A stretch of DNA of 44,029 bases, from the IMG/VR virus record IMGVR_UViG_3300030329_002716, positions 1 through 44,029 of that record. One strand, written 5' to 3'. The notes beneath the pieces were generated by a model. The model was not told the origin of the DNA and did not search any database. It saw nothing but the letters and a program-made list of their open reading frames with translations. Numbering within the stretch: position 1 is the first letter of the stretch; every line of letters begins with the position of its first letter. A program made the position numbers and the translations under genes. The DNA comes from a virus. Positions 5,522 through 27,986 of this stretch are shown piece by piece.

Positions 5522-5966
5522 AAGATATATTGGGATAGACCCAGGAAAAAGTGGTGGCATTGCAGTAATTATGGAAGATGGTAGTACTAAGGCATATAAA
5601 TGTCCTCATAGCATAAAAGATATGGCATTAGTTTTTTCTATTGCTATGGGAAATACTGCTCCTGCTGATACTTGTGTTGCTATTGAAAAGGTATGGGCAC
5701 ACCCAGGGGATGCTAGGAGTAGAGCATTTGTTTTTGGAACTAACTATGGACAATGGCAAGGGATTATTGCTAGCCACGAAATAGAATTTAGAGAGATACC
5801 TCCACAGACTTGGATGAAATATTATAATGTTCCTAAGCTTGAGAAAAATAAAAGGAAGAATTGGTTAAAAGATAAAGCTAAAGAATTATTTCCAGAACAT
5901 AAAAAGATTACACTGTATAATGCTGATGCACTGCTTATAGCTCACTATATTAGTAGGGAGAATTAA
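5490..5966 (+). CDS. RuvC-like Holliday-junction nuclease
   Basis: The RNase H-like fold is shown by YIGIDPGKSGG with D17 on the first strand, AIEKV with E66, and the C-terminal NADALLIAHY with D146. These match the acidic metal-binding residues of the RuvC family. Such phage enzymes cut branched DNA before packaging. The start is TTG at 5490, chosen because GAGGAG lies at ideal spacing upstream; it overlaps the helicase by 32 bases. The size (158 residues) fits the family. The gene ends the rightward arm and its last 17 bases overlap the end of the opposing giant gene. Confidence 0.9.
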   Translation: MKKKTKSYHSKRYIGIDPGKSGGIAVIMEDGSTKAYKCPHSIKDMALVFSIAMGNTAPADTCVAIEKVWAHPGDARSRAFVFGTNYGQWQGIIASHEIEFREIPPQTWMKYYNVPKLEKNKRKNWLKDKAKELFPEHKKITLYNADALLIAHYISREN

Positions 5967-8900
5967 AATTAACTAATTCCTTGCCATACTTTTGATTATA
6001 GTACTTTAAATACCTTCTAAGTTTTACAATATAATCACGATTTAAAGACTTCAACTCTTGAACTTGTGCTGGAGTTAAATACTTATTAAATCCATTTATC
6101 TTTTGAATTGGGCCTTTACCTCTCCAGTTACCTTTAGATGTTTTTTTGTTTAAAAAGTAATGTGGATTATTTCTATACAGACCTTCGATAATTTGCTTGC
6201 GTGCTTCACGAACAGATTCATTCCAGCTTTTGCTTCCCTCAATATTAAACTTTTTACCCTCACCATCTCTACCATGTTTGTAAAAATCAACTGCAAGTCT
6301 TTGGAAATTAGTACCTAAAACTTCTGCGAATTGTTCTTTACTTCCTGTAAATAGTGTTTTGTAAATATCGTTATAATACGCACCTCTTGAATTAAACTCA
6401 ACTGGGTAAGAATCACGTTCTGATGGATATGTCCTTTTAATAAAATCTCTATAAAGTTGTCTATATTTTAACTTTCCTTTTTCTAGTGGATTGCTACCCC
6501 TTTCTATTGATTTCATCATATTAGAGTATCCAACAACAACAGTTCTCATGTGCTTCTCAGCTGCCTCCCAACCACTACGTTCACCTGAACCCCATTCATA
6601 AAGATGCACTAATCCTAATCTTGCTTGGTCTACTAATACAGGGTAAAACATATTTGTCACTGGGTTTGACACAACCCCCCATAACCCATAAGGATTATAA
6701 AACTCAGAGAACAATCCTCCAAATTCACCCCTCCACAATCTTGTTGTTGTTCTATCCCACCAACTATCATTTTCATGTGGTATGGCAGTCCCTAGTAAGA
6801 AATTAGACATACCAAGTAAGGCTGCACCCCCCATATAATGTCCTGCTAGTTGAGCAAGTAAGTATGTCTTTTTTGCTTTAGTTTCTGGGTCAAAAGCTAA
6901 TTTAATATTTCTTGCAGTGTTCACAGTTGCAGCGTATGCCATCCTTTTATAGAGAGTTAAAGGTTTCATCCATTTCTTACCAAAAGCTTCTGGCATAAAA
7001 TAATCTAATGTTGCACCTTGAGTGAACACATGAGATGCAGTCATGATTTGTTGATTTATATCAGCTAATTGTTTCTCAACTAAAGCTCTTTCTTGCAAGG
7101 AAAGATTTTTAAAACTTTCAGTTGTACCTTCTCCATATTTTTCAAGCAACTCCATTTGCATGTCAGACAATCTGTTTCTTTTCTGTAAATCGCCATATGC
7201 TTTTTTGTATTTCTTACTGTTCTTAGAAATATTGGGATTAGAAATCACTCTAATATTCCTTGAGTTAAACATTTGGCCTGCTAATGGTGCAACTGTTCTG
7301 TTAAAAAACTCTGTGGCTGGAAACCCTCCAAGATTAAATTGAAAGTCAGCGATACTTCTAAATATTCCTTTATCACCTGGCATATCTATATTTTTATACC
7401 CTAATTGAGTAGCACCTGTCTTATAAATCTCGTTTCTAGTTTGCCTATTTAAGGATTTTAACGCTCCACCTAAAAAGTACAACGAGCCAAATGCTCCTGT
7501 GGTTTGTGATGTACCTGTTATAATATTTTTAACCCCACCAAATCCACCAAATCCTAATTGAAATTTCGATAATACGTCACTTGCCACCCTTAATTGATGA
7601 GCACCATATGAAAAAAATCTATTCCCTCTGTCTCCAATGCCTAACTGTTGTTTAAGTTTTTCTTCTGCCCATTCTATTCTTTCTCTTTGATTAGGTTTAG
7701 CCTTTGCTTTTAATTGTTCAAATTGACCTTTATATCCAGAAAGAGATAATCCTTTAAGGCTAACGTATTCTGGAAATACTTGAAGGTTGGCCAAATACTT
7801 TGATATTCCCACAGAATATTGCCCAAAGACTGATTCAAAGGAAGTTTCATAGGTTTTTACCATTTTACCATCATTTCCCTTCATCTCTGTACCAAGAAAC
7901 GCTCTTCTATCTTTTAAGAATCTTGAGCTATATGAGTCTCCTGCGTACTCAAATGTATTCCATACGTCTAACCACACAGAAGATTCTAATGATTCTATGG
8001 CCTCTGCCATCTCTTTATCATATTTTTTACTGCCCATTTTCTTCACAACATCTTCCCCAAACTTCTTCTCTAAATGTCTGTGTGCTCTAGCTTCAGTCTC
8101 TTTATGAACCTGTCCTAGAAGTTGTTGATTTTCAGGGTTATAACTTTCTTTGAATTTTTCTGTCATAATTCTTGGAACATAAAAATCTTTCTCAATCCAT
8201 TTTATTTCGCTCTCTTTTTTCCATTGCTCAAACTCAGCTGTAGTCATTCTATCTTTAACAGCAAAATCAATCTCATTTCTATAGTACTCAGTTGCTTTAC
8301 GCCATTCCATCATAAAGTCTAAATACTTACCTGTAATCTGGTCTATAGGAACACCATTTTTATCAGTATATTTACCAGTAGATTCGTTAAATTTAAATTC
8401 TCTAGCATTTTTATATCCTCTTCCTTTAGGATTGATAAAAACTCTATTGACAAAATCTTGCTCAAATGGTGTTAATTTGCCATTTTTAATTTTATCCAAC
8501 CTCATATCATAATCTAATAGGTAGAACAGCTCTTTTACATTCTTCCATTTATATTTTCCAAAGTACTTTTTAGGTTTTAAGTATGATGTAATTCCATAGC
8601 TATCAAATATCTCTTGTCCTTTTCTCTCTAAGTGAAGATATGTCTTAGCATGGTGTCCAGTTTCAAGCGATACATGTCTAAACATATCATTAGATAAGTC
8701 TTTCATTCCTATCATATCCATTACTGCATACATTGGCATTCCATTTTTTGCAATATTTTTTATAGTTCTAAATGCTGCTCCATCAGCTTCCCCTAACATA
8801 CTTTCAATCTGAATATCAGTAATATGAGGAACATTGTCTTTCATATTTCTGTCAAAGTTATTCATTAAGAATGATTTATATTTTGCTCTTGCAAAACTAG

Positions 8901-11900
8901 ACATATCTTTTATATTCCCAGAAGGAGTGTCAAAGAATCTTCTAATTATATCAGAATTACTACTATGGCTAATGTTGGATTGAATTCTAAGATTATCTAA
9001 TGCTTGCATTTCTACTCTCCAATCAAGAAAATCTTTAAATTGAATAAAGCCTCTTTTCTTAGCATCATTTAAGTTGGCTTCACTCATAAATTCAACAAAC
9101 TTTTTAAAGTCTTGCTTACCTGCTTCAGTTGATAAATCACCTAATCTAAATCTAAAATTAGAAGGGTCTGAAATTCCTGCAGCTTTTGCAATCATTTCGA
9201 TTAACGTACTTTTACTATATATTGATTTGTCAGCCTTAAATTCTTCAACAAACTTATCAAATACCCTTTCACCTGAGCGTAGCAAATCCTTATTGTTTTG
9301 AAAAGATATTTTCTGACCCTCAAGTTGGAACTTATCTTTTACATTCCCTGTGGTAAATACAGTTTTTAAGAAGTCTAAATTCTTAACTTTCTCACCCAGC
9401 AATCTTTGAACATCTTGTGGACTTGCAACGCCAAAAAATTCTTTAATCCTTGACACCATAACCTTTGCCCATTGGCCTATTCTACTAGCAATCCCTTTAT
9501 TGGAGTATCTATTTAATGCCCAATCTGCAATTCTATCAGTAAAGTATTCATTAGCAGCAATCTCAGCAATCTCTTTCTCAGTTGGCATTTTCTTTATCTC
9601 ACCTTTACCTAGTTTTTCTAATAAGTCATTCTTTATTCTTTCTTTATATCCATTAAAATTATCTTTATCTTTACTTTGTGCTAATTTCTTTGTAGCTTTC
9701 TGACCTCTATCCCACATCTCAATTAATCGTTCATTTCTTGAAGCTCTAATAAATGCTTCTAGCCCATGAACAGTCTCATGGAAAAATGTTTGTGGAGTAG
9801 CTTTGTCGTACACTAACTTTATTCCCTCAGTTGTAATCTTACCAGCATAGTTTAAATTTTCTCTTGATACATCAATATATTGTTCTAAGAATGGATTTTC
9901 TCTTATAACATTTGCAAGAAATTTAGTCAGTATCGTTGCATCTTTTGTTTTTTCACCTGTGAAAATTTGCTTTTTATTTAAATTTTTAGCTAGCTCTTTT
10001 ATAACTTTCTTATCTAATTCTATTTCAAACTCAACCCTAGACTTATCACTTGGCATGACTTCCTGCACTCTTGGCCCTTGTTCTATCATATAAGAAACAA
10101 TAGCATCCATAGTCTCTTTTGTATACCATTTATGTTCCTTGCCAAATCTAACTTGCTTCGAACCTTTAACCTCTCTTACAGTTACATTCATATTATTAAA
10201 CTCATGTTTCCCTTCACTCAGGTTGAATAGGTTCTCTATACCATTAAGTCCCTCTTTTAGTTTATAAAGATATACTTCTGATTTAGTACTTTCTTGTTTA
10301 AAGCTTTCATGCATTTTTATATCTTTATTTCTATATTTATCTTTAACCTCCTCAAGAGATAGTTCAAATAAATCTGTTGTCATTTCTTTTGATAATTTTT
10401 TAAAGTCACTCAAGAATCCCTTTAGTTGTGCCTTTTTTAAATATGCTTGATGAACTTTGGTAAGTTCTACGTGACTATGGGCAATTACATCTGCTGCTTT
10501 CCATTCATTGCTCTGTGACCCAAATCTAATAGCTGCATATTGAGTGATTGCCTTCCTTAGTGTACTTGGTGTGATTGCTTTTCCAAATCCTACATTCCTT
10601 AAAAAACCTTTAAGCATCTCTTTATCAAGGACGATATCTTTTCCACTGTTATCTTTAATGTTAAATGCTAAATCTCTATCATCTCTACGTTCTTTAGGGA
10701 TAGACTCATAAAGTGTTTTAAACTTTTTCTTTAGATAATCACTAATAGGTCTATAGGCAGAAGTTACAGTCTGAGCAGTCACAGTCCCCTTTTTAAACGC
10801 CTTAGCCATAATATATCCCACTTGACCAGTCTTTATAGCGTTGGCAATCGTATTAATCCTAGCACCTTCTTCTTTTTGGATAGATAGCTCTTTAACTTGT
10901 ACTACATCTTTTTTTGCAGAAACTTGAGGAATATAATTTGCAGTCTCCCTTGGAATCGAATATTTATAATTCTTCAAGAAGGTAGATATTGCAAAATTAT
11001 TTGCACCCTTACCTAAAGCTTTATTAATATCTTCAGGTAGAATCTCAAGCAAAGTCCTTCCATTTTTAGAGCCTATCTCAGCCAACATTGTTAATGCTTT
11101 AAACTGAGCATGTATTGTACTTATCCCTTTTGATGTCCCAGTATCTAATGCCTCTTGAAACGATTTATGAGAATTAGCGATAATCATCTTTTTACTCTCA
11201 TTTAATATAAATCTTCTATGGTCTCCTTCAGGTATTTGTCTTTCAAGCCTATTAAACATCAAATCTAGTGAATCTTTATCTTTAAGAATTTTTTTTATAT
11301 CTTTTGACATTCTACCTGTAATTAATCCATTTAATATATCAGCGTTTAGCTTGTCTCCTAATAATAGCCTTAGCTTTGTTTTTAGATTTTTTTCGCTAAG
11401 ACTCTTATCTTGTAATATCTCTGATTTTTGTTTTTGAAAATCTCTATAAAATTCTTTATACCAATTAGCAGGCTCAATATAGCCAGTTTGAGAATCATAC
11501 TTATTACTTATATTTTTTAAATCTGGAGATTGCTGCTTTTCAATAAGTTCTTTAAGCTTTCTTCTTAAAGGCCCTCGACTTTTATCATTTAATGAATATC
11601 CAGTAATTTTATCTAAATCTTGCTCATTTAGTATTCGCTCTCCTTTTAAAGAGCCAGTATTCATAACTTCCTCAATCTGCTCTTTAGTTGGCTCTCCCTT
11701 AATTTTTTTAGCTTTAAATAAAATCTTGAGATAGTCAGCGACCTGAGACTCTAATACTGCTTTATTTAATTCTTGAACTTTCTCAATCTGTGTATCATAG
11801 AATGCTCTTTCTTGAGCAGTAAACTTGTCTTTATTTAAAGTATATTCAGATATAAGTTGTGTATCAGTCATCTTGTCGTAAATTGAACTTGGATTTGCAT

Positions 11901-14475
11901 TAGGATTATTTTCTATAACCTCATTTATTAGTTCAGTAGTATTATATCCATCTTTTAGCTCTGTAATTTGGTCACGAGCTATCTTCTTTTGAAATTCTAA
12001 ATCTTCATATGCTCTACGCTCATTAGGTTTCATTTTATCTAAAACTATACTTTTTTCAGTACTATTTAACTGATTATGCTTTAAACTATTAATCTCTTTT
12101 GGAGATAAGTCTGATGCATTTAATATTTTATCCATAGCTATTTGATGCTTGTTTAACCTATTATGATGAGATAGCAATTCTGCAAAGTTTACATTTTTAA
12201 TAGACATTGTTTTGATTTCATTTGCAGTGTATGCTGTATGACCTAAACGCTTTGAATCCATAAGCTTACTTATAATCTCTCCTTGTGGAACATTTGCAGC
12301 ATCAATCGTTTCTCCATTTAAAGACATTTCATTGTATGCTTTCTTTAAAGCATCTAATGGTTTCAGGCCATCTACCTCAACAAATTTTACAAACTTCTCC
12401 ATAACATCTTGAATTGGGATGTCTTGACTTGGATTACCTTGTCTTCCCCAATTCTCTATTTCATTGGCTATGTTTCCCTTCTGAATGTCTCTCTGTGAAT
12501 CCCTTTTAGCTTCTGCTTCTATTTTACTCTCAAACTGCTCCCTGCTAATAGTTCTTCCTTGTTTATCTTTAACCTCAAAAAGCCATTTATCTCCTGCTTG
12601 TGAAACTTTAAACTGTAAACTATTTTTAAATTCTGCTAAATTAGCAGGCATTAATAAATCATTAAACTTTTCATGCTTATTCCTAATTATCTCTATTTGA
12701 TTTTTCCAATGGTCAATCAAAAGATTTTCTTCTAACTCGCCTTTATATCCTGCTTGTTTTCTAAATTCAGGATTATCAATAAGTTCTTGTAATTTTGCCA
12801 TCTCAAATTTTTCATACAAGACTCTATTTTGTAATTGCTTAACCCATGCTGTATCACGCTTAGAAAGTATATTATTAGCTTTGTCCATAAACTTTTTAAG
12901 GTCATCTCCAGCCAATTTTTCACTAGCCAGTTTTTCTATATCCAGCTGAGTCTTTTCACGAATCTCTTGTTCAAGTTTTACTATCTCTTCTCTACTTAAA
13001 TTATCTAAATCTTTATCTTTTAAAATATCTTTAACTTTTGTTCTTTTTACACCTATAGTCTCTAACAAGTTGTCAAAATCAAGGCCAAGCTTATCATATT
13101 CTTTTTCAAACTTATCAGCACTCTTACGTAAAATTTCTAGCTCGTGTAATGTGTTATAATTATCAAGAAGATTTTTATCTGCTTTATTAATTAAATCAAG
13201 AAATGATTTTCCTTGGTCTCCACTAACGTGTTTATCTATATACTCTTGGAGTGTTACTTTCTTTTTAGTAACAGGGTCAGTTACCTGACTATTCATTGCA
13301 ATTCTCGCATTATTTATTTCATATTGATTGAGGATTCCTTTTGAACCATTCATCACTGCATTTTTAAAATTCCCAGGAACATTCATCGCTCTAAACCCAA
13401 GTATCATCCCTAAGTTATGCGTCCTATCTTTCCACCAACTATCAGCTGTTTTTTGGTCAGGATGCATAAACCAATGAGCTTGTGTAAAAGCTTCTGCTTC
13501 AGCTCCAATTGCAGCAGTACCAGTTCCCCATTTAGCAGCTAATGCTGTCTTTGTTCTACCCTCACCAACAAGCTTAGATATTTTATTAACTGTTGCAAGG
13601 TGAAATGCTGAACCAGTTAATCCTGCTGCAGCACCAGCTAGCATAGAGTCTTGATACCCTTTTGAGCCTGCTTGAAATAACCTCCAATAATCCATATTTT
13701 CTCTAGCCTCTTCTGGAGTTTTACCATTTTGCAATTGTTCGTACATTTGTTGCTTTGCATCTTCTGATGCATATCCAAATGCAGAATACATACTAATATT
13801 GCCTATGCCACCAGCAGCACTTTCAAGCATGTGTGATGGCCAATGAGTTCCATTTTTAGTGCTTAGTCTTTTTGCTAGTTGTCTTCTATATGTTCTACCT
13901 TTAATAGCTTTTGTTGCCCAACCTGCAAGTGGAACTGCAGTTTTACCTGTCGTCCACTTCGTAAATTGCCCACTCCCTTTTGATGCCCATAATATTGCTA
14001 TATCAAGAGGGCTTGCCATACCAATAAACATAGATGCAAGTCCAGCTCCTATATCACCATCTAAGTGTGAATAATCTTCTGGATTAAATCTCTGCCTTCC
14101 ATTGGCTAGAAAATATGCAGCCCCAGCAAATGATTCATTGTATCCTTTTTGGAAATATTCTGGGGCGATTCCAAGAACGCCTTCGTCTCCAAAGTGCTCT
14201 GCTGCACTAAGCTGCCCAGTAACAAATCTCTCTAGCATTCCTGGGGATTCATCCACATCATAAGGTTCTTTGCTAGAGCTAGCATTGTCTAAAGCTTCTA
14301 TAGGGTTATACGCAACTGCTGGGAATGGGTTCTGAGGGAGCTCTCCCTCTTCATATTGGTTACCCATTCTCTCCACAAACAAGTTGTATACTTGATTGTC
14401 TGACATATACCCAGTACTTCTTGGGTCTTTAGAACGATACCATTTAACTATATCTGTAGGATTAACTCTGTACAT
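5950..14475 (-). CDS. giant internal/ejection protein with HExxH metallopeptidase-like domain
   Basis: At 2841 residues this is the largest gene and the last of the late operon. Its ribosome binding site is AAAGGAATAAATA. The N-terminal 400 residues have Gly/Ala-rich hydrophobic segments (for instance GAGLASMFIGMASPLDIAIL), typical of proteins injected with phage DNA. Residues of about 430-1300 are long charged helices. A zinc-peptidase motif, HETVH, is at 1566-1570, with a possible third ligand in IAANEYFTDRIADW further on, as in metallopeptidase domains of large polyvalent phage proteins. The C-terminal 700 residues again contain hydrophobic helices. It is probably an ejection protein processed or active in the host cell; the peptidase activity is inferred from the motif only. 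Confidence 0.75.
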   Translation of the reverse strand: MYRVNPTDIVKWYRSKDPRSTGYMSDNQVYNLFVERMGNQYEEGELPQNPFPAVAYNPIEALDNASSSKEPYDVDESPGMLERFVTGQLSAAEHFGDEGVLGIAPEYFQKGYNESFAGAAYFLANGRQRFNPEDYSHLDGDIGAGLASMFIGMASPLDIAILWASKGSGQFTKWTTGKTAVPLAGWATKAIKGRTYRRQLAKRLSTKNGTHWPSHMLESAAGGIGNISMYSAFGYASEDAKQQMYEQLQNGKTPEEARENMDYWRLFQAGSKGYQDSMLAGAAAGLTGSAFHLATVNKISKLVGEGRTKTALAAKWGTGTAAIGAEAEAFTQAHWFMHPDQKTADSWWKDRTHNLGMILGFRAMNVPGNFKNAVMNGSKGILNQYEINNARIAMNSQVTDPVTKKKVTLQEYIDKHVSGDQGKSFLDLINKADKNLLDNYNTLHELEILRKSADKFEKEYDKLGLDFDNLLETIGVKRTKVKDILKDKDLDNLSREEIVKLEQEIREKTQLDIEKLASEKLAGDDLKKFMDKANNILSKRDTAWVKQLQNRVLYEKFEMAKLQELIDNPEFRKQAGYKGELEENLLIDHWKNQIEIIRNKHEKFNDLLMPANLAEFKNSLQFKVSQAGDKWLFEVKDKQGRTISREQFESKIEAEAKRDSQRDIQKGNIANEIENWGRQGNPSQDIPIQDVMEKFVKFVEVDGLKPLDALKKAYNEMSLNGETIDAANVPQGEIISKLMDSKRLGHTAYTANEIKTMSIKNVNFAELLSHHNRLNKHQIAMDKILNASDLSPKEINSLKHNQLNSTEKSIVLDKMKPNERRAYEDLEFQKKIARDQITELKDGYNTTELINEVIENNPNANPSSIYDKMTDTQLISEYTLNKDKFTAQERAFYDTQIEKVQELNKAVLESQVADYLKILFKAKKIKGEPTKEQIEEVMNTGSLKGERILNEQDLDKITGYSLNDKSRGPLRRKLKELIEKQQSPDLKNISNKYDSQTGYIEPANWYKEFYRDFQKQKSEILQDKSLSEKNLKTKLRLLLGDKLNADILNGLITGRMSKDIKKILKDKDSLDLMFNRLERQIPEGDHRRFILNESKKMIIANSHKSFQEALDTGTSKGISTIHAQFKALTMLAEIGSKNGRTLLEILPEDINKALGKGANNFAISTFLKNYKYSIPRETANYIPQVSAKKDVVQVKELSIQKEEGARINTIANAIKTGQVGYIMAKAFKKGTVTAQTVTSAYRPISDYLKKKFKTLYESIPKERRDDRDLAFNIKDNSGKDIVLDKEMLKGFLRNVGFGKAITPSTLRKAITQYAAIRFGSQSNEWKAADVIAHSHVELTKVHQAYLKKAQLKGFLSDFKKLSKEMTTDLFELSLEEVKDKYRNKDIKMHESFKQESTKSEVYLYKLKEGLNGIENLFNLSEGKHEFNNMNVTVREVKGSKQVRFGKEHKWYTKETMDAIVSYMIEQGPRVQEVMPSDKSRVEFEIELDKKVIKELAKNLNKKQIFTGEKTKDATILTKFLANVIRENPFLEQYIDVSRENLNYAGKITTEGIKLVYDKATPQTFFHETVHGLEAFIRASRNERLIEMWDRGQKATKKLAQSKDKDNFNGYKERIKNDLLEKLGKGEIKKMPTEKEIAEIAANEYFTDRIADWALNRYSNKGIASRIGQWAKVMVSRIKEFFGVASPQDVQRLLGEKVKNLDFLKTVFTTGNVKDKFQLEGQKISFQNNKDLLRSGERVFDKFVEEFKADKSIYSKSTLIEMIAKAAGISDPSNFRFRLGDLSTEAGKQDFKKFVEFMSEANLNDAKKRGFIQFKDFLDWRVEMQALDNLRIQSNISHSSNSDIIRRFFDTPSGNIKDMSSFARAKYKSFLMNNFDRNMKDNVPHITDIQIESMLGEADGAAFRTIKNIAKNGMPMYAVMDMIGMKDLSNDMFRHVSLETGHHAKTYLHLERKGQEIFDSYGITSYLKPKKYFGKYKWKNVKELFYLLDYDMRLDKIKNGKLTPFEQDFVNRVFINPKGRGYKNAREFKFNESTGKYTDKNGVPIDQITGKYLDFMMEWRKATEYYRNEIDFAVKDRMTTAEFEQWKKESEIKWIEKDFYVPRIMTEKFKESYNPENQQLLGQVHKETEARAHRHLEKKFGEDVVKKMGSKKYDKEMAEAIESLESSVWLDVWNTFEYAGDSYSSRFLKDRRAFLGTEMKGNDGKMVKTYETSFESVFGQYSVGISKYLANLQVFPEYVSLKGLSLSGYKGQFEQLKAKAKPNQRERIEWAEEKLKQQLGIGDRGNRFFSYGAHQLRVASDVLSKFQLGFGGFGGVKNIITGTSQTTGAFGSLYFLGGALKSLNRQTRNEIYKTGATQLGYKNIDMPGDKGIFRSIADFQFNLGGFPATEFFNRTVAPLAGQMFNSRNIRVISNPNISKNSKKYKKAYGDLQKRNRLSDMQMELLEKYGEGTTESFKNLSLQERALVEKQLADINQQIMTASHVFTQGATLDYFMPEAFGKKWMKPLTLYKRMAYAATVNTARNIKLAFDPETKAKKTYLLAQLAGHYMGGAALLGMSNFLLGTAIPHENDSWWDRTTTRLWRGEFGGLFSEFYNPYGLWGVVSNPVTNMFYPVLVDQARLGLVHLYEWGSGERSGWEAAEKHMRTVVVGYSNMMKSIERGSNPLEKGKLKYRQLYRDFIKRTYPSERDSYPVEFNSRGAYYNDIYKTLFTGSKEQFAEVLGTNFQRLAVDFYKHGRDGEGKKFNIEGSKSWNESVREARKQIIEGLYRNNPHYFLNKKTSKGNWRGKGPIQKINGFNKYLTPAQVQELKSLNRDYIVKLRRYLKYYNQKYGKELVNFNSPY

Positions 14476-25274: not shown

Positions 25275-25436
25275 TTATAATTCTTTTAATGCAATATACA
25301 ACTTTACTGCGACATAAAAAAATGTAACGACTCCTACTGCTACATTAACTACTTCTGGCAATACATTCCAAAATCCTAATTGGAATGTTCCATATCCTAT
25401 AAATGATGTTTTAAGTGTGTCTTGCATTTCCATCAT
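25275..25436 (-). CDS. small membrane protein, 53 aa (holin candidate)
   Basis: A short gene filling the gap between the phosphoesterase and the upstream decoration-like gene. Its ATG overlaps the upstream TAA by one base (TAATG), with GGAG ten bases before it. The product begins MMEMQDTLKTSFIGYGTFQL and then has one long hydrophobic helix of about 20 residues (VVNVAVGVVTFFYVAVKLYI) before a LKEL tail. This size and topology fit a pinholin-type or other one-pass membrane protein. A second ATG immediately follows the first; the first is preferred for its coupling. Confidence 0.65.
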   Translation of the reverse strand: MMEMQDTLKTSFIGYGTFQLGFWNVLPEVVNVAVGVVTFFYVAVKLYIALKEL

Positions 25437-26149
25437 TAAAAATTTGCTCCAAAAAATGTTGCATTTTCTGCTACTGTTGTTGTTGCTGCTGTAAACTCAA
25501 TATATGGTTCTTTAGCAGTTGCAGATTCCCCCATATAAAAAAAAGAATATTTAGCATCTGTCCCTGTTAATGGAAACTCTTGGTCTCTATAATCATACGT
25601 ATAATCCATTACCATTATAGAGAAATCATCTAAGCTTGCCATATTTGCAAGAGCAGTTGCATTTAAAGGAATATCAATATATGAATCTACAGAATAACTT
25701 GTTCCTGTATTTGATGAATAAGCTAATCCTGGCACACTTGCTAATGTTCCTCCACCTGAACCATCAGTAGCTGCTAATTGTGTTGCTGCAGTAGGAGAAT
25801 CTCCATCTCCCACCATTGTACTATATCCTGTAAGATTGAAAGAGCCATTTCCACTTCTCCTTACTGCAATTAAGTCAATTGCCTCAAAAATAGTTTTAGG
25901 CATTATTTTTAAAGTTGCAGATGCTGGGGCAACAGAAATACCTGAAGTGTCAAACCAAAGCATCATTCTATATATAGCAGTAACATAGCCACCTCTACCT
26001 GCGAATCTATCTATTATCATACCAGGAGCACTTGAAGTACTATTATACGCACCACCTGACCCTGCACTTCTGGTTGCATCCCAATCAGTTGCAGCATAAA
26101 TCCAAACCATTCCATCTTTGTTAGTATTAGTAGTATATAATGTTGGCAT
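25436..26149 (-). CDS. fibre/decoration-like virion protein, 237 aa
   Basis: Ser-, Gly-, Thr- and Ala-rich beta protein with segments such as AIYRMMLWFDTSGISVAPAS and IDIPLNATALANM, and a C-terminal strand YIEFTAATTTV. The phrase around FDTSGI followed by a SATLKI strand resembles the DNRLRE/beta-sandwich modules seen in surface proteins and phage fibres. It is a late gene with ribosome binding site AAAGGTGG and is followed by a coupled small membrane gene. A surface or tail-fibre role is likely but the partner is unknown. Confidence 0.55.
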   Translation of the reverse strand: MPTLYTTNTNKDGMVWIYAATDWDATRSAGSGGAYNSTSSAPGMIIDRFAGRGGYVTAIYRMMLWFDTSGISVAPASATLKIMPKTIFEAIDLIAVRRSGNGSFNLTGYSTMVGDGDSPTAATQLAATDGSGGGTLASVPGLAYSSNTGTSYSVDSYIDIPLNATALANMASLDDFSIMVMDYTYDYRDQEFPLTGTDAKYSFFYMGESATAKEPYIEFTAATTTVAENATFFGANF

Positions 26150-26703
26150 TATGCTACCACCTTTGGCATATAATAATGATTTTGTATTTCAGTGTAGCTA
26201 TTGCTATCAGGAGTTACTGCAATCTTCTCAAAAGATATTGAGCTAAAAGAGTAAGGGTCATATTCTTTTTCAAAGTTATTCCAATAAGTTGCCTTACCAC
26301 CTGACTTTAATTTAGAAGATAAGAATGTTTTAAAATTTAAAATATTATCATCTCCAAAGGTATCTAAGAATATTCCATCATAAGTTGATAAGCCACTTAC
26401 ACTATTCCAATCACCTTCAATAACAGTAACATTAGATTTACCTGATGCCCAAGTATTTAACTTAGTTAGTATTTGAGGATGTATCTCAATAATTGTATGA
26501 GAATTAACACCTTGTGCTTGTATGTAATCTGAACATATACCCATTCCAAATCCTATCTCTAAAATATCACCCTTGCTTTGACAAATATACTCTGCTGATT
26601 TTTCCATAATAGGTGCTTCCCAATCCATCATAACCTCAATACTTTTAGTACTATCAACTATTTTAGTATCTTCAAAAGTTAATATATTATCTTTAAATGC
26701 CAT
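26149..26703 (-). CDS. GAMT-like class I SAM-dependent methyltransferase
   Basis: 184 residues with the Rossmann-like AdoMet motif ILEIGFGMGICSDYIQ (about 47-62), the ribose-binding acid in HTIIEIHP (E73) and a post-IV segment GIFLDTFGDD (D114). The overall pattern, including VMMDWEAPIM (W28, E29) at the N-terminus and GGKATYWNN later, follows guanidinoacetate N-methyltransferase, in which the equivalents of E29 and D114 hold the guanidino substrate. So the substrate may be a guanidino compound or an arginine side chain. It is coupled (one-base overlaps) to a fibre gene on each side, which hints that it modifies a virion or host surface component; that part is inference. Confidence 0.8.
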   Translation of the reverse strand: MAFKDNILTFEDTKIVDSTKSIEVMMDWEAPIMEKSAEYICQSKGDILEIGFGMGICSDYIQAQGVNSHTIIEIHPQILTKLNTWASGKSNVTVIEGDWNSVSGLSTYDGIFLDTFGDDNILNFKTFLSSKLKSGGKATYWNNFEKEYDPYSFSSISFEKIAVTPDSNSYTEIQNHYYMPKVVA

Positions 26704-27986
26704 TAGAATTGAAAATCCAAACTTGCTACACCATAAGCAATCTCATTATCTGCGTCATAAAAAAAAGATATAATATCTACGTGATTAGCATCATCAGATA
26801 AGTCTGGATTACTTCCACCTGGGAATTTAACTGTTGCACTACCACTAGCTGCTGCAGTATTATTCCTATCCCAAACTTTATAATTAGTTACTGTTCTTGA
26901 CCCTGTACCATCCTGTTTTAATAAAAGAACAAAATTGCCTGATACTTTTGGGAATATTAGATTTAAATCTGTTATATTATTACCATCAAAAGTTACAAAC
27001 TGCTTATTTCCTGTCGTAAAATCAACATCAGTATCTGAGGCATTAAATGTAGGAGTTACTAAATCAAATCCTACTGCACATCCACCAAATTCAACATAGC
27101 CATCAGCATCAATATGCAAATCAGCTAAAGCAGCATCATCATCAACAGTGGATATCGTTGTTTTACCATTTGTATCTACTCTTATTCTAAAATAGTCATT
27201 CAAGTTTGAATCATCAAAAATCTGAAAATATGGATTATTGCAATCAAATTCAAAATGTGACGTACCACCATCTTTAATTTTTACCTGCGCTCCATCTGCA
27301 TCTAAAGTAATATCACCACTTGAATTAATAGTTAAATGCCCTGCTGTTATTTCGTTCCCATTAATTGCTAAATCTCCTGCTACAGTAGTTATTGAATCTG
27401 TACCTGAACCTAAATTAATATCCACTTCCCCAGAAGCATCTCCATCCTCTAGTTTTAAACCAGTAGTGGCTGTGCCATTATGTGATGCCACCTTTAATTC
27501 CATTCTTCCACCACAATCCCCATCAGATACATCTGCTGTTTGCACTACTATTGAACCAAAAGTATGATAAGTAGGAGATAAAGTGTCATCATCATTTTGC
27601 ATAAAACTAATTGTACCTATTGTATCATCATCTGCTGAAGTAACAGTAGATTTGTAAAAATTTAAAGTTGAACCATTAGCATCTGCATTATTATTCTGTA
27701 AGCGAAGATAAGGGTCTGCAGATGTGGTACTAGAAATAGTAACATCGCCACCACCTGGAGTTATGGATATGTCTCCACTAGAAGCAATTGTTAAATCTGT
27801 ACCATCACCCTCTATTTTTTCGCCATCATCTCCAAATGTCAATCCAATATTAGCAGGTATGTTAATATCTCCAGTAGCATCTAAAGTTAAATCGCCTGCT
27901 AAATCTAAAGTAACATCTCCTGATACATTCTTAATTGTATCTCGTGTCCAAAGGTGGTGGTCTCTTGTTATTTTATTAGTTGCCAT
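26703..27986 (-). CDS. tail fibre protein, 427 aa
   Basis: Built of short repeated beta strands of the type GDVTLDLAGDLTLDATGDIN, followed by GTLTIxSSGDI-like units, then a more compact C-terminal domain ending VDIISFFYDADNEIAYGVAS. Similar strand repeats (SGDITLDADGAQVKI) recur in the middle. These are typical of trimeric phage fibres in environmental phages. The ATG overlaps the upstream stop by one base and there is only a weak ribosome binding site, so expression is probably coupled. Confidence 0.75.
   Translation of the reverse strand: MATNKITRDHHLWTRDTIKNVSGDVTLDLAGDLTLDATGDINIPANIGLTFGDDGEKIEGDGTDLTIASSGDISITPGGGDVTISSTTSADPYLRLQNNNADANGSTLNFYKSTVTSADDDTIGTISFMQNDDDTLSPTYHTFGSIVVQTADVSDGDCGGRMELKVASHNGTATTGLKLEDGDASGEVDINLGSGTDSITTVAGDLAINGNEITAGHLTINSSGDITLDADGAQVKIKDGGTSHFEFDCNNPYFQIFDDSNLNDYFRIRVDTNGKTTISTVDDDAALADLHIDADGYVEFGGCAVGFDLVTPTFNASDTDVDFTTGNKQFVTFDGNNITDLNLIFPKVSGNFVLLLKQDGTGSRTVTNYKVWDRNNTAAASGSATVKFPGGSNPDLSDDANHVDIISFFYDADNEIAYGVASLDFQF

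Follow-up and report, generated by a model that had tools for sequence, protein, structure and literature searches.

Locus and gene organisation

The window, i.e. the whole stretch of DNA analysed (44,029 nt), is the 44 kb IMG/VR virus record IMGVR_UViG_3300030329_002716, a marine phage that also encodes an SU10-type capsid, a P22-type portal, a terminase, a DnaB helicase and a DNA methylase. Its minus strand carries a three-gene tail cassette composed of the fibre protein F2 (26703..27986, 427 aa, with weak PHROGs tail matches), an AdoMet-dependent methyltransferase resembling guanidinoacetate methyltransferase (GAMT; 26149..26703, 184 aa), and the tip protein F1 (25436..26149, 237 aa), a predicted CBM-like adhesin that we propose as the substrate of the enzyme. 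The methyltransferase open reading frame has one base in common with each neighbour at TAATG junctions (26703 and 26149), its start overlapping the stop of F2 and its stop overlapping the start of F1. A sequence-only reading of the window had pointed out this position within a fibre cassette, with a one-base overlap on each side, and the same arrangement recurs in nearly all relatives of the locus.

The methyltransferase, recognised from its reading frame, PDB profile and fold, was found at 61 viral loci, and the order fibre F2, methyltransferase and tip protein F1 is kept in almost all related loci. In the main group, F1 lies directly downstream of every methyltransferase whose downstream gene is readable. 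The enzyme/tip pair was also recovered from unrelated phages (L047, L216 and L049), including a Flavobacteriales MAG contig that has fibre genes of phage type and whose tip keeps the GRGG motif (L216), and loci L049-L052, where the tip gene sits on the opposite side, upstream of the methyltransferase. Across the main group, methyltransferases share 60-77% identity, F1 proteins only 20-37% identity with the window copy, and F2 varies greatly in length (about 130 to 900 aa). Some GAMT-like phage enzymes adjoin other, unrelated fibres (L053, L057-L061 and L062), and that of L056 lies in a DNA-metabolism region. Elsewhere in the window, a 2841-aa protein without Pfam match (5950-14475, minus strand) ends the structural gene cluster.

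A GAMT-type methyltransferase with an intact guanidino pocket

Searching the PDB with the methyltransferase sequence (phmmer) retrieved four GAMT entries (E about 1e-11), the next protein standing at E 0.2, and a profile of 39 viral homologues strengthened this match (GAMT E 3e-24, next family 7e-4). The AlphaFold (AF2) model, a single domain of 184 aa with a pLDDT of 96, was most similar to the GAMT ternary complex 1xcj (Foldseek E 2.4e-12, query TM 0.81); the E value of the top matches, 1xcj and 3orh, was ~five orders of magnitude below that of the first unrelated fold. Pfam, PHROGs and NCBIfam offered no specific family model, returning weak generic methyltransferase matches or none, so that the kinship with GAMT is drawn from comparisons of sequence and fold with the PDB. 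These comparisons confirmed the GAMT-like nature of the gene suggested by the sequence-only reading, and the assignment to GAMT-type methyltransferases is very probable. An FkbM or generic methyltransferase, the competing placement considered in that reading, is ruled out by PDB profile and fold. A type I-III protein arginine methyltransferase (PRMT) was likewise rejected: neither Pfam nor NCBIfam returned a PRMT family, and the 184-aa model is a single domain as opposed to the PRMT beta-barrel.

In the tree, the phage enzymes cluster in a separate clade (97/96), adjacent to a homologue from a 635-kb huge phage (86/94), but they do not group with GAMT, which falls apart from them with NRPS-linked relatives from Bacteroidota (90/81, long branches). 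The tree and the missing N-terminal lid speak against a true GAMT ortholog: the phage enzyme has only 24 residues ahead of the aligned core, against about 40 in GAMT, where residues 1-42 cover the active site as an N-terminal lid (PMC12842229). The active-site pocket of the phage enzyme is therefore presumably more open. The phage enzyme is thus a member of the GAMT superfamily with an intact guanidino pocket rather than a GAMT ortholog and, since it branches outside GAMT, creatine synthesis is unlikely.

The AdoMet motif I noted earlier (LEIGFGMG, 26539..26562, minus strand) has invariant L48, G51, F52 and G53 and nearly invariant M54 and G55. E29 (codon 26617..26619, minus strand), which comes first in the acidic pair of the guanidino pocket, lies in a VMMDWE segment and aligns with the Glu of GAMT VMERWETP, while D114 (codon 26362..26364, minus strand), the proposed general base, aligns with the Asp of GAMT ILYDTYP. 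In GAMT, this equivalent residue (Asp134) deprotonates the guanidino nitrogen during methyl transfer (PMC12471008, PMC12842229). The acidic pair, whose conservation in phage homologues had been put forward as a sign of catalysis, is unchanged in all 51 of the 51 viral homologues of full length, and H75, P76 and W99 do not vary among them either. N142 also looks invariant in this alignment; in a second alignment it is replaced by Glu in L056.

Scanning bacterial genomes with the single methyltransferase protein yielded no relatives; an alignment-based scan yielded ten. The acidic pair is kept in most of the bacterial relatives aligned. Two GAMT-like proteins encoded beside NRPS genes in Bacteroidota (L254, 1282-2073; L255, 1378-2196, minus strand) have Q and H at these positions. 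L218-L224 are alphaproteobacterial proteins (all but L220) in which TPR repeats are fused to a domain of the methyltransferase family, and which are possibly protein-directed. A distant homologue from a Streptomyces plasmid (L259, 1944-2579) lies beside genes for a 2-ketoarginine methyltransferase and a beta-methylarginine aminotransferase, suggesting an arginine-derived substrate. This neighbourhood of beta-methylarginine biosynthesis genes makes arginine chemistry plausible for the methyltransferase family.

A hypervariable tip protein in an exchangeable slot

F1-type tips are hypervariable proteins of ~220 aa. The F1 model (pLDDT 78) is a CBM-like beta-sandwich, for which the best Foldseek hits were a chondroitin-sulfate CBM (8wab) and an alginate CBM (7vbo), with E values of 7.6e-6 and 3.3e-5 to CBM structures. 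This likeness to the CBM96 and chondroitin-sulfate modules is one of predicted fold, with less than 12% identity to the structures and weak Pfam scores: CBM96 was matched by 8/32 F1 members (best E 0.001) and the window F1 had no Pfam CBM96 match. F1 had no match in cultured phages either. As it has no conserved stretches, its profile search in viral contigs returned no usable result, and relatives were found by single-protein and C-terminal-motif scans.

Within this variability, enzyme-associated F1 proteins share an invariant R52, R61 and D186, together with an almost invariant N236. In addition, many F1 proteins end in FFGxNF (FFGANF in the window, 25439..25456, minus strand), a motif that also ends quite different proteins occupying the same slot in related phages devoid of the enzyme, and that is found on other tip types with and without methyltransferase. 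The occurrence of different FFGxNF-ending proteins in one slot indicates that tips can be exchanged at this position, with FFGxNF probably serving as their common signal for assembly (or anchoring). The methyltransferase, for its part, accompanies the F1 type of tip.

Arg52 tracks the presence of the enzyme

In the F1 model, R52 and G53 form a two-residue turn between strands 40-51 and 54-67. R52 (codon 25994..25996, minus strand; G-R-G-G, within the peptide FAGRGGYVTAIYR) would therefore be exposed on the tip, at the turn of a predicted beta-hairpin, and is the proposed methylated arginine. R61 (codon 25967..25969, minus strand), located in a strand, served as the control residue.

To compare tips with and without enzyme, we considered proteins of 180-262 aa, i.e. 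48 tips with and 8 without methyltransferase, leaving out tips of 680-726 aa in which the column is not reliably alignable. The enzyme-free tips came from FFGxNF pattern scans, which are independent of R52, and from a metallophosphoesterase-anchored scan; the methyltransferase was absent from the full records of all eight. Position 52 is an arginine in 48/48 tips with enzyme versus 3/8 without (Fisher p 1.5e-5, a value that treats these related proteins as independent), the other enzyme-free tips carrying K, K, I, F and a gap. Twelve columns, each at least 90% conserved in enzyme-positive tips, were compared in this way, and the other eleven showed no significant difference with the presence of the enzyme; D186 is kept in 8/8 enzyme-free tips, and R61 is an arginine in 48/48 and 8/8.

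The link weakens when ancestry is taken into account: on the tree, enzyme-free branches represent 14% of the length and bear all three R52 losses (p about 0.003, a value that depends on the tree used). The clearest case linking Arg52 loss to enzyme absence is the pair L162/L166 (R to K), whose position within the enzyme-positive tips is firmly supported; in L162, the fibre gene directly overlaps the tip gene, with no enzyme between them. L181 (R to I) is placed next to an enzyme-positive tip with weak support, and the third loss concerns a deep long-branch pair (L191/L202), which may never have had the enzyme or Arg52. Three tips (L079, L184 and L189) keep R52 without the enzyme, although the record of L079 is a 6.9-kb fragment, outside of which its enzyme could lie.

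This correlation bears on what the enzyme modifies. The sequence-only reading had offered two substrates, an arginine of the virion or a guanidino-bearing molecule of the host surface; the former is favoured by the link between Arg52 and the enzyme, and the latter found no support. More generally, it appears quite improbable that the methyl group goes to a small compound with a guanidino group or to a host surface molecule and not to a virion protein: GAMT, the best-characterised relative, does act on a small molecule and other relatives adjoin natural-product genes, but such a substrate would hardly account for the constant association with one tip gene or for the Arg52 link, the enzyme falls outside the GAMT group, and its shortened N-terminal part points to a more open pocket. 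Action on a non-guanidino group (asparagine, lysine or a glycan) by a repurposed GAMT fold is very improbable. The Q and H of the Bacteroidota NRPS-locus relatives indicate that the chemistry of the family can drift, and a second phage type, described below, lacks W99 and N142, yet the acidic pair is invariant in the phage clade and the correlated residue is itself an arginine.

Arg52 could also have a role other than that of methyl acceptor. The enzyme might methylate another arginine of the virion (in F2, R61 of F1 or a phage-specific one), with Arg52 as a docking or structural residue; the invariant arginine could, for instance, bind the enzyme itself. R61 is equally invariant, and the enzymes of L053, L057-L061 and L062 adjoin unrelated fibres, as this explanation would allow. 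However, R61 is invariant even without the enzyme and Arg52 is the sole conserved column that tracks it, which makes this reading fairly unlikely. Alternatively, Arg52 might bind an anionic glycan, its link with the enzyme reflecting a shared receptor type or ancestry and the enzyme having an unrelated role. The chondroitin-sulfate- and alginate-binding modules found as nearest folds and the small enzyme-free sample agree with such a function, which we nevertheless consider unlikely: receptor-binding residues are rarely invariant in proteins that are 20-37% identical, and the derived Arg52 losses coincide with the absence of the enzyme.

Putative methylation of the tail tip

Methylation of Arg52 of the partner tip F1 by the methyltransferase is the reading we retain, with a probability of roughly 0.55. 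The enzyme would bind AdoMet, hold the guanidino group between E29 and D114 and methylate Arg52, in the turn of the predicted exposed hairpin, presumably before or during virion assembly. As the internal guanidino nitrogen is the one that GAMT methylates, the expected product would be delta-N-monomethylarginine, by analogy with that of yeast Rmt2, and the likely effect of this mark would be to tune receptor binding by the tip or to stabilise the tip. A wider proposal, in which this locus represents a dedicated arginine-methylation system for a tail-tip adhesin, with a GAMT-derived enzyme placing delta-N-monomethylarginine on a hairpin-turn arginine, being swapped as a unit with its partner and providing a mark that takes part in host recognition, is tentative and in our opinion somewhat less than evenly probable.

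Compared with GAMT (1xcj, 3orh), the phage enzyme shares the fold, the AdoMet motif, the VMxxWE segment and the Glu/Asp pair holding the guanidino group, but is shorter (184 versus about 235 aa) and sits in a tail cassette. GAMT and Rmt2 are grouped in one UniProt family; we found no literature joining the two. Rmt2, the type IV protein arginine methyltransferase of fungi and plants, produces delta-N-methylarginine on Arg67 of Rpl12 (PMC3365026). The chemistry proposed as common to Rmt2 and the phage enzyme would be methyl transfer to a protein arginine at its internal guanidino nitrogen, on a ribosomal protein for Rmt2 and on a tail tip protein for the phage enzyme.

Phage protein methylation was first reported in 2026, in Cellulophaga phages, whose proteins, a putative tail fibre among them, carry methylated arginines and lysines in both virocells and free virions (PMC13288928). 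No methyltransferase gene is known from these phages, and host enzymes were proposed, none being assigned (PMC13288928), whereas the present phage encodes an enzyme paired with one tip protein. In the literature searched, the coverage of which is incomplete and constitutes weak evidence of absence, we found no description of a phage that encodes a methyltransferase for a virion or receptor-binding protein. If true, our reading would take GAMT-type chemistry beyond a small metabolite (and the ribosomal protein of Rmt2) to a viral adhesin. Furthermore, with a phage-encoded enzyme, a single candidate residue and natural enzyme-free cassettes, in some of which the residue is replaced, the contribution of methylation to tail function can be tested directly.

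Divergent enzymes and tips

A second, very diverged methyltransferase type was detected in four loci (L131, 5892-6446; L164, 6322-6861, minus strand; L179, 5411-5959; L207, 12351-12902), where it separates the fibre gene from a different type of tip. This enzyme type retains the E and D, has lost H75, W99 and N142, and has GAMT as its best PDB match (E 4e-4). RG motifs are also present in tips of the type associated with this second methyltransferase that have no enzyme at all. A general rule equating an RG motif with methylation is ruled out, other tip types carrying NGRG without methyltransferase.

Enzyme-free tips related to F1 were found in other configurations. In L227-L245, tips of 680-726 aa combine a long N-terminal region with an F1-like C-terminal domain, without methyltransferase. 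In L191 (4325-4522) and L202 (2725-2922), whose F1-type tips lack both Arg52 and the methyltransferase, the fibre and the tip are separated by a 65-aa open reading frame ending in ETNWSF or ETDWSF, perhaps an alternative partner of the tip. Finally, upstream of another homologue, a LamG-type protein (L053, 4063-4962) contains AGRGAVFRGYRV, which resembles the GRG motif of F1, a likeness that may be coincidental.
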